64,000 nucleotides of DNA from Ignavibacteriota bacterium (GTDB lineage Bacteria > Bacteroidota > Ignavibacteria > Ignavibacteriales > Melioribacteraceae), in assembly GCA_002698995.1 (NCBI GenBank), contig PAAX01000036.1, positions 62,001-126,000 of the forward strand. Direction: 5' to 3'. The notes beneath the pieces were generated by a model. That model searched no databases. It worked only from the letters and a program-made list of their open reading frames with translations, and was not told the DNA's origin. Of the stretch, positions 49,475-50,837 are shown one piece after another. Position 1 is the first letter of the stretch; every line of letters begins with the position of its first letter. The translations under genes and the position numbers were made by a program.

Positions 49475-49858
49475 TTAATTTTCTGATAAAGAAACGAGCT
49501 TTATCGCCTTTTTTGTGGTTTCATCTAATGATGAAATTAAGCTTTTGGCTTTGTTGAAACTCTCTTTTTGAACTCCAACAAAAATAACTAATTTTGATTG
49601 GCTTCCTCTATTGTTGCGGGCAGCAAGATATTTTAATTTAGAAATTGTTTTGGGATTATCTAAATCTTCATTTTGTAATGTAATTCCAATTGCTAACTTT
49701 TTCTTGTACTTACCAACAGCGTCAACTTCATAAGTTCCCATTGGTGTTGGGTCAGGAAGATAAGTTCCGTATTTACGGCTGATTGTTAAATAACCATTTT
49801 TCCAGAAATGATCAATTAATCTATCAACTCTTTGCTGGTATGTATATCTTGCAGTCAT
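49475..49858 (-). CDS. Small protein of unknown function in the lexA operon
   Basis: The 127-residue soluble protein has an aromatic N-terminal helix region (YTYQQRVDRLIDHFWKNGYL) and then alternating strands and helices. The stretch YEVDAVGKYKKKLAIGI recalls the core strands of PD-(D/E)XK nucleases, but the expected E-x-K is replaced by I-G-I, so catalysis by that mechanism is doubtful. A strong ribosome-binding site (TAGGAGGT) precedes the ATG. It lies 19 bases after the WYL-like gene and so may be SOS-controlled. Confidence 0.75.
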   Translation of the reverse strand: MTARYTYQQRVDRLIDHFWKNGYLTISRKYGTYLPDPTPMGTYEVDAVGKYKKKLAIGITLQNEDLDNPKTISKLKYLAARNNRGSQSKLVIFVGVQKESFNKAKSLISSLDETTKKAIKLVSLSEN

Positions 49859-49877: not shown

Positions 49878-50123
49878 TTAGTTAAAAGACATAATCGGAA
49901 TTATTGGAGAAAACTTATTGAATTCCAAAACCTTAATGTTCATAATTTTTTCATATTCAAACATCTTGATTTCATTCGTACTGCTGATTCTGCCGTAAAT
50001 AACTTTCTTTCCTGTTTTATTAAATGCGATATAATAAGGTTCCAATACAACTTCATTAAATCCGTATAAAAACTTTACTCTATTTCTATCGCTTATAGCT
50101 TTTGAAAATAAATCCGACTTCAT
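49878..50123 (-). CDS. Small WYL-like protein in the lexA operon
   Basis: The 81-residue protein resembles the first half of a WYL domain: KAISDRNRVKFLYGFNEVVLEP, then KTGKKVIYGR where WYL proteins have the name-giving residues, then an F-x-Y-E-K-I region (motif read in parts). WYL domains bind nucleic acid or nucleotides and often regulate DNA-damage and defence genes. No helix-turn-helix part is attached. It starts 16 bases after the lexA stop with AGAGGTG upstream. Assignment is tentative. Confidence 0.7.
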   Translation of the reverse strand: MKSDLFSKAISDRNRVKFLYGFNEVVLEPYYIAFNKTGKKVIYGRISSTNEIKMFEYEKIMNIKVLEFNKFSPIIPIMSFN

Positions 50124-50139
50124 ATAAACACCTCTAAGT

Positions 50140-50784
50140 TTAATTGTAATAACGAATTACGCTAATTACTTTACCTATTATCGAAAAGTCTTCAAAATTG
50201 TTTACATCAATTAGACGATAATTTTGGTTCTCGGGTTTAAGGTAAATTTTATTATCCTCTTTTAGGAATGTTTTTAGGGTTGATTCATCCCCCAGCATTG
50301 CAACTACAATATCTCCGTTATTTGCCACTTTCTGCTGATTAACAATAACCAAATCTCCATCCAATATTCCGGCTTCAATCATACTATCTCCTTTAACTTT
50401 TAGACCGAAGCATGAACTTGTGGTTTTTGTAAAATTCGAATCGACTAAAATTCTATTCTCAATATTTTCTTCTGCAAGAATAGGATAACCGGCGGCAACT
50501 CTACCAACAATAGGGATTTCAACAAAACTATCATTTTCATTTGCTGCTATTGGAAATACATTAGAAGAATTGTCAGTAATCGAAATTGAGCGGTTACTAT
50601 TCTCATTTGTAGTTATGTAACCTTTTTTAACCAGCGCATCAATGTGACGTTTAACGCCGAATGTTGAATTGATTTCAAATCTCTTTCCAATTTCTCTATA
50701 CGTCGGAGGATATCCTCTTTCATGCTGAAATTCGAAAATGAAATCTAATATCTCTTTTTGGCGGTCTGTTAATTCTTTTTTCAT
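50140..50784 (-). CDS. lexA: LexA repressor
   Basis: I place the start at ATG 50784 (MKKELTDRQKEILDFI), removing 12 residues that would be read from the operator region. The 214-residue protein has an N-terminal winged helix (about 1-65) and a C-terminal S24 peptidase domain. Its cleavage site is Ala98-Gly99 in RVAAGYP, with Ser134 (GDSM) and Lys171 (TLKTF). LexA represses SOS genes until RecA-ssDNA triggers self-cleavage. Two matching palindromes overlap its promoter, indicating autoregulation. Confidence 0.95.
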   Translation of the reverse strand: MKKELTDRQKEILDFIFEFQHERGYPPTYREIGKRFEINSTFGVKRHIDALVKKGYITTNENSNRSISITDNSSNVFPIAANENDSFVEIPIVGRVAAGYPILAEENIENRILVDSNFTKTTSSCFGLKVKGDSMIEAGILDGDLVIVNQQKVANNGDIVVAMLGDESTLKTFLKEDNKIYLKPENQNYRLIDVNNFEDFSIIGKVISVIRYYN

Positions 50785-50787
50785 TGT

Positions 50788-50805
50788 AGTGCTCTTTTGT
50801 TCACT
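50788..50805 (-). promoter_or_regulatory. Candidate LexA operator 2
   Basis: An 18 bp site AGTGAACAAAAGAGCACT (minus strand) has the form AGTG-N10-CACT, within a longer perfect repeat of TTGTAGTG and CACTACAA arms (50784-50791 and 50802-50809). It spans the transcript start to the start codon. Its centre is 26 bp from that of the other site. Confidence 0.6.
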
Positions 50806-50808
50806 ACA

Positions 50809-50837
50809 AATATAGTGCACGGATGTACACTTGTCAA
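50809..50837 (-). promoter_or_regulatory. lexA promoter
   Basis: On the minus strand, TTGACA (50837-50832) and TATATT (50814-50809) are separated by 17 bp, the best promoter match in the window. The start codon is about 25 bases after the -10 box. Confidence 0.8.
50814..50831 (-). promoter_or_regulatory. Candidate LexA operator 1
   Basis: An 18 bp site AGTGTACATCCGTGCACT (minus strand) fills the spacer between the -35 and -10 boxes of the lexA promoter. It has the same AGTG-N10-CACT form as the second site. A repressor bound here would block RNA polymerase directly. Confidence 0.65.

Follow-up and report, generated by a model that had tools for sequence, protein, structure and literature searches.

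The promoter of a canonical lexA gene (lexA1) within the 64,000-nt stretch of DNA analysed here (the window) carries two copies of an 18-bp palindrome, and the same box recurs upstream of dnaE2-C, a gene encoding the C-terminal half of a split, DnaE2-like accessory polymerase of the C family. Sequence comparison across the order indicates that LexA1 very probably represses its own operon and dnaE2-C through these boxes. An earlier note on this DNA had put the palindrome forward as a candidate lineage-specific SOS box; conservation at lexA1 and recurrence at dnaE2-C support that proposal, pointing to a LexA1 operator with a predicted regulon that is very small and directed at translesion polymerases. 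The features concerned are listed in Table 1.

Table 1. Coordinates of the features discussed, in the window or, where a locus is given, elsewhere in the same genome.
Feature	Position	Strand	Remarks
LexA1 box 1, AGTGTACATCCGTGCACT	50814..50831	-	between -35 and -10; matrix score 22.8 bits
LexA1 box 2, AGTGAACAAAAGAGCACT	50788..50805	-	over presumed transcription start; 23.1 bits
-35 element TTGACA	50832..50837	-	directly before box 1 in 44/56 genomes
-10 element TATATT	50809..50814	-	TATATT present in 41/56 genomes
lexA1, canonical LexA repressor, 214 aa	50140..50784	-	TIGR00498; LexA_DNA_bind and Peptidase_S24 domains
Stand-alone protein of predicted WYL fold, 81 aa, second gene	49878..50123	-	match in 47/47 lexA1 loci
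127-aa protein, third gene, tentative restriction-endonuclease-like fold	49475..49858	-	42/43 distinct loci
lexA2, second LexA	L190:4623-5243	-	own box upstream
dnaE2 halves, contig C15	L252:5119-6786 and L252:6929-8584		accessory DnaE split between palm and fingers

Paired boxes at the lexA1 promoter

The lexA1 product scores 219 bits against the LexA equivalog model, above its cut-off of 110.95. The Ala-Gly cleavage site and the Ser/Lys dyad, located by E. coli LexA sequence and numbering, are A, G, S and K in 55 of 56 aligned rows, the remaining row being a gap. The promoter matches the consensus at 11 of 12 bases, with a 17-bp spacer between its -35 and -10 elements. Box 1, the upper repeat, fills the whole spacer and takes the first base of the -10 element as well, and box 2 stops 3 bases before the lexA1 ATG at 50784, the two centres lying 26 bp apart. 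These sites are the sole exact matches to AGTG-N10-CACT in the window, where 0.25 were expected and two were reached in 3 of 100 shuffles. The arrangement is that described in the earlier note: two sites of one form on the lexA promoter, one in the spacer of a near-perfect promoter and one between the start of transcription and the start codon. Its account of the half-sites needs correction, as AGTGnACA is found in one half of each site and the other halves read AGTGCACG and AGTGCTCT.

The proposal had been tied to conservation at lexA in related genomes, and the paired boxes with 26-bp spacing are present in 51 of the 56 lexA1 promoters that could be read in a sample of 58 genomes (the genome of the window and its relatives). 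A LexA1 match at E up to 0.001 was found in 57 of these genomes, that of G028 being UmuD-like, and no lexA1 was obtained in two of the 58 (G028 and G033); the closest named relatives of LexA1 come from Melioribacteraceae and other Ignavibacteria MAGs. Mean information per base in the 51 promoters is 1.28 for box 1 and 1.48 for box 2 vs 0.20 well upstream, and the LexA1 proteins share 54% mean identity (34-genome subset). The consensus half-site is A-G-T-G-n-n-C-a-w, and conservation within the box is highest in the outer AGT...ACT (A 0.92, G 0.97, T 0.99). A chance origin of the sites was rejected on the strength of this conservation in relatives. A scoring matrix was trained on lexA1 promoters only, omitting two of the 112 lexA1 sites that score at or below 8 bits (in G027 and G054), and two sites of at least 14 bits occur in 54 of the 56 promoters, the same ones that trained it; the reversed motif reaches 14 bits in one of 56. 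The lexA1 boxes of G045 are poor, at 15.6 and 14.7 bits with a spacing of 31. Letter shuffles (not dinucleotide shuffles), the reversed motif and recA loci served as background for the matrix; a random-window background gave 4.9% at 14 bits or above, and was set aside because its windows came from loci that contain true sites.

Two further genes follow lexA1 in a presumed operon, with gaps of 16 and 19 bases in the window. The match to the 81-aa protein stands beside lexA1 in every one of the 47 loci (four of them duplicates). By fold comparison this is probably a stand-alone WYL-fold protein: the top rows are domains of DriD, BrxR, PafBC and CapW, and the alignment to DriD gives Z 12.1 and rmsd 1.3 over 72 residues. 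With an E limit of 0.1, the WYL model PF13280 matches 10 of 40 family members (best 0.0016); the window member is not among the matches listed. PafBC and DriD have been described as binding single-stranded DNA in DNA-damage responses. The 127-aa protein is tentatively assigned a nuclease fold of the restriction-endonuclease-like type, with a middling best Z of 8.4, several restriction-endonuclease-like chains in the top rows, and an AHJR-like REase match in 2 of 41 members of its family (best E 0.0075). Foldseek E-values lie above 0.001 for both operon proteins.

A probable second target at a split polymerase gene, and the extent of the predicted regulon

The matrix trained at lexA1 finds a site of at least 14 bits upstream of dnaE2-C in 40 of 43 genomes, the own genome included; the best of 714 letter-shuffled promoters scores 11.2 bits and the reversed motif reaches 14 bits in 0 of 43. 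In the own genome the box (AGTGTACGTATGTTTACT, 19.9 bits) adjoins the downstream end of TTGAAA-N17-TATTAT, leaving 17 bases to the ATG. For these counts, dnaE2 hits below 45% identity and all those starting past query residue 60 were dropped, which removes replicative DnaE and end fragments, and the N-half fragments of G010 and G053 and the lexA2 genes of G010 and G014 were left out. Three dnaE2-C promoters are without a LexA1 box. That of G044 has an exact LexA2 box (described below) in its place, and in its genus-mate G051 the gene order is lexA2-dinB-dnaE2-N-dnaE2-C, with 12 bases separating the two polymerase halves. The third, in G045 (L348), has neither a LexA1 nor a LexA2 box, and the lexA1 boxes of that genome are also divergent.

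The dnaE2-C gene is about 560 codons long. In the own genome its product carries a fingers domain, HHH_6 and an OB match of 26.6 vs the Pfam cut-off of 27; its alignment to E. coli DnaE chains starts at residue 593. The separate gene dnaE2-N encodes PHP and DNA_pol3_alpha domains and aligns to E. coli DnaE residues up to 578, so that PHP, DNA_pol3_alpha, fingers, HhH and OB are all present, spread over two proteins; a full-length DnaE of 1147 codons is encoded in the own genome as well. Complete halves are open frames of roughly 530-620 aa, none fused among the 58 genomes. Both halves are found in 38 genomes, the C-half only in 5 and the N-half only in 3 (N-half fragments of G010 and G053 uncounted). 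The halves lie in tandem less than 300 bases apart in 4 of the 38 (G000, G012, G018 and G051); in genomes assembled as a single contig (G035, G046, G048 and G049), linear coordinates place them 0.48 to 3.3 Mb from each other. Of 40 N-halves, two of them fragments of 247 and 321 aa, 38 have a PDxDxDF motif and 38 a KxDxLSQR-like motif; these motifs hold the catalytic aspartates. Elsewhere in the class, families f4, f12 and f23 have full-length frames of 1037-1111 aa, whereas f13 has the gene in two parts as well (5 genomes, one of them at a contig edge). An old, derived split is a better reading than a frameshift, since both halves are full length with their motifs across the order, f13 shares the split, and f4, f12 and f23 have the gene in one piece. 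It seems to have been the C-half that relocated, because dnaE2-N stays near dinB (within 2.5 kb on the same strand in 21 genomes), as the full-length gene does in two f12 genomes, where it comes after dinB and one further frame. Placement in DnaE2, as opposed to a second DnaE1, is tentative, the error-prone polymerase model scoring below several DnaE models. A mirror comparison over 34 genomes gave correlations of 0.46 between N-half and C-half, 0.47 between N-half and LexA1, and 0.26 between C-half and LexA1; these are only modest, and a case for co-evolution therefore gains nothing from them. The two halves likely form one working translesion polymerase.

The box also occurs at other polymerase genes in some genomes. 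Among 41 dinB/umuC promoters it is found in 8, six of which share it with a divergent dnaE2-C (G003, G011, G021, G042, G056 and G057), and among 40 dnaE2-N promoters in one, that of G047, again divergent from dnaE2-C across a single box. Nine genomes have umuC or umuDC and no dnaE2-C; three of these have a LexA1 box there of 23.6-26.3 bits (at umuC in G015 and G055, at umuDC in G024), and the other six have no box of 10 bits or more beside umuC/umuDC. No LexA1 box was found at dinB in the own genome, at any of 27 DUF72 promoters, or, outside the order, upstream of the split dnaE2-C of f13 (5 genomes) or the full-length dnaE2 of f4 and f12 (5 genomes). In the own genome dinB is immediately preceded by a DUF72 gene (L253:2910-4939), and in G038 a DUF72-like gene and dinB follow lexA2.

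Counts of the bare pattern say little at genome scale: AGTG-N10-CACT is hardly enriched in the own genome, with 17 sites vs 12 in its reversed control. Of the extended form AGTGNNCNNNNGNNCACT the whole 4.23-Mb genome has two copies, both at the lexA1 promoter, and 0 of its reversed control. With one mismatch it is not enriched in the own genome (9 vs 13 in the reversed control), and neither is a relaxed pattern (10 sites vs 10). The seven one-mismatch sites comprise five in coding frames, the dnaE2-C site, and one (L129) between frames of at least 90 aa with no evident repair gene downstream; besides lexA1 and dnaE2-C, all seven relaxed-pattern sites lie in frames. A wider LexA1 regulon in the own genome is unsupported by these counts, and beyond lexA1 and dnaE2-C no own-genome target can be claimed because the mismatch and relaxed patterns do not rise above their controls. 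Over the 58 genomes the strict pattern gives 103 forward sites vs 25 for the reversed control. Of the 75 listed, 46 are at lexA1 by reading and 29 elsewhere: 17 before dnaE2-C, one each at a umuC-like gene, dinB and a DinB-family gene, seven in unrelated frames, and two at other positions (G012 and G017). The G012 site stands behind a murI-like frame. An exact box in G017 (L272:119-136) is near a contig edge, the regulated gene being out of view, and an exact box in G043 (L263:2489-2506), upstream of a DinB-family (PF05163) gene, may mark a further target.

The earlier note had proposed looking for sites of the same form at recA and other damage genes. Such sites are present at dnaE2-C and, in some genomes, at umuC, umuDC or dinB, but not at recA. 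No LexA1 box of 8 bits or more was found in the 7-kb region of the own recA operon, where recA follows thpR, and 30 recA loci (116,255 bases) contain none that reaches 10 bits, although operon starts in other genomes may lie outside those loci. The LexA1 regulon is thus far smaller than the classical one, since recA is without a box, and the LexA1 targets are not a full SOS regulon, with no box at recA, at the own dinB or at the own lexA2. SOS networks without recA have been documented (PMC13148647).

Proposed mechanism, LexA2 and alternative explanations

Under the proposed mechanism, a LexA1 dimer on box 1 would sit between the -35 and -10 elements and another on box 2 would cover the transcription start, the two together repressing the operon of lexA1, the WYL-fold protein and the nuclease-fold protein. 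LexA1 would also occupy the box just after the -10 element of dnaE2-C, which encodes the fingers/HhH/OB half, while the PHP/palm half with its catalytic aspartates comes from the separate gene dnaE2-N. Upon DNA damage, RecA on single-stranded DNA would trigger self-cleavage of LexA1 and free both promoters, and the induced C-half would join the N-half to give an active error-prone polymerase. The N-half may be supplied constitutively, or from near the second LexA in some genomes. We infer LexA1 binding, cleavage, induction and the assembly of the halves from these arrangements.

Alternatively, repression of lexA1 and dnaE2-C through the boxes might be the work of a different DNA-binding protein, for instance LexA2 or some unrelated regulator, with LexA1 acting elsewhere. 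The operator role of LexA1 is deduced from sequence, nearly all genomes encode a second LexA, and the LexA2 box at dnaE2-C in G044 adds some weight to such an arrangement. LexA2 of the own genome is 37% identical to LexA1, and its promoter has a different palindrome: TACCATAC-N4-GTATGGTA is found at lexA2 in 31 of 34 genomes when as many as 4 mismatches in 16 are allowed, and 14 of 20 genomes have a single copy of the strict core of this box. A LexA2-like box is present at lexA1 in one of 56 genomes (with 4 mismatches) and at two of 43 dnaE2-C and none of 40 dnaE2-N promoters, and a LexA1 box is present at lexA2 in none of 34 genomes, the own included; on these grounds LexA2 was rejected as owner of the box. 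A further argument comes from G027, in which the LexA1 recognition helix reads SVNGAKTH vs ST.GVKRH in at least 90% of LexA1 proteins, and CTG replaces GTG in three of the four lexA1 half-sites and both dnaE2-C half-sites. A joint change of the boxes at both promoters is expected if one protein reads them, and its coincidence with a changed LexA1 helix argues against a different owner, which we regard as improbable.

Another alternative is that LexA1 merely regulates itself, the dnaE2-C box having no damage-response role and both polymerase genes being decaying remnants. The tiny regulon without recA would fit, as would the 5 genomes with a C-half and no listed N-half, the 3 with the reverse, and single stops inside the N-half matches of G018, G020 and G048. 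Several of the one-half genomes are, however, fragmented assemblies, with N-half fragments in G010 and G053, and decay is hard to reconcile with full-length halves that keep their catalytic motifs across the order or with a box kept at nearly all dnaE2-C promoters; we consider this account very unlikely. It is scarcely credible that the inverted repeats act in RNA, as a terminator or attenuator. The upper repeat was flagged as terminator-like, but its position between the -35 and -10 elements precedes the start of any transcript made from the promoter, and the terminator reading was rejected; the box moreover recurs at a second promoter, with the same bases conserved and not merely their pairing.

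Repression by LexA1 of its own operon and of dnaE2-C remains the favoured reading, and a more speculative extension of it, which we regard as possible though doubtful, is a two-key lock in which the fingers half is held behind LexA1, the catalytic half is either made constitutively or carried along with LexA2, and the stand-alone WYL protein, of a single-stranded-DNA-sensor type, feeds back on the response. In 16 genomes lexA2 has dinB within 6 kb on the same strand, and in 9 it has dnaE2-N within 8 kb. If such a lock exists, translesion synthesis would need the release of one, and in some lineages two, separately tuned LexA switches. One strict LexA2-type site in G006 lies away from any recognised lexA2 gene.

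For an order whose SOS response was found undescribed in the open-access literature searched, the results would define a LexA operator and a minimal regulon, with two LexA paralogs of different box side by side in most genomes examined. They favour placing translesion synthesis, and not recA, at the core of SOS, and they open to direct test the idea that mutagenesis is controlled through the assembly of a polymerase. The joint change of box and recognition helix in G027 offers a natural experiment on LexA specificity.

Comparison with known polymerases and LexA systems

DnaE2 accessory polymerases are built of PHP, palm, fingers, HhH and OB parts (PMC12926913, PMC3919608). The same parts are present here, with a Y-family gene adjoining in 21 genomes, but they are divided between two genes cut between palm and fingers and mostly non-adjacent. 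A PHP motif departing from TDHGN is a further DnaE2 feature that the protein here has. Cyanobacterial DnaE is likewise a C-family polymerase encoded as two genes, rejoined there by a split intein (PMC3919608), whereas a domain search found no intein family in either half here. The 2013 survey rejoined fragmented sequences where intact relatives existed (PMC3919608), and split cases may consequently have been masked. Within the open-access literature searched, no report of this LexA1 box or of a split DnaE2 was found, nor any paper joining 'SOS response', 'LexA' and 'Ignavibacteri'; LexA and DnaE are both absent from the main text of the Melioribacter roseus genome paper.

The earlier note had set the box apart from the E. 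coli and Gram-positive boxes, and this holds for its bases but not for its geometry, the 18-bp dyad being in register with both. The LexA1 box thus reads as a box with the dyad geometry of known LexA boxes and different bases. The Gram-positive box of B. subtilis LexA (DinR) is CGAAC-N4-GTTCG (PMC9578287). In this shared register the G and C at positions 4 and 7 of the LexA1 box correspond to those of GAAC, and among the lexA1-promoter sites G..C-N4-G..C is present in 75 of 110 and a GAAC half in 65 of 110, whereas the full GAAC-N4-GTTC is present in 2 of 110, neither of them a window site. The central 18 bp of the E. coli box, TACTG(TA)5CAGTA (PMC9578287), align without gaps, the half-site being ACTGTATA in E. 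coli and AGTGnACA here; CTGT-N8-ACAG is found in none of the 110 lexA1 sites above 8 bits, in one of 40 dnaE2-C sites, and in one of the two left-out lexA1 sites (G027). In E. coli, LexA controls recA, unlike here, where recA is without a LexA1 box.

In Balneolaeota, the LexA motif TTACACATATTTTWTACATA, also derived from lexA promoters, governs a regulon of lexA, translesion polymerases and recA (PMC7739468). The combination of lexA and translesion polymerases is shared, but that motif is a direct repeat and its regulon includes recA, as opposed to a palindrome here. Non-canonical LexA proteins of Bacteroidetes, with the motifs GGA-N5-TCC and CTAA-N5-TTAG and a phage-CI-like N-terminal domain (PMC8565304), place dinB and dnaE2-type genes of the wider group under SOS-type control; they differ from LexA1 in their motifs and in its LexA_DNA_bind N-terminus. 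Paired LexA regulons are described in Pseudomonas putida and Xanthomonas axonopodis (PMC9578287), where, as here, one cell has two LexA proteins with separate boxes. The pair described here differs in being widespread across an order, and in that the conserved targets of LexA1 are itself and half a polymerase.
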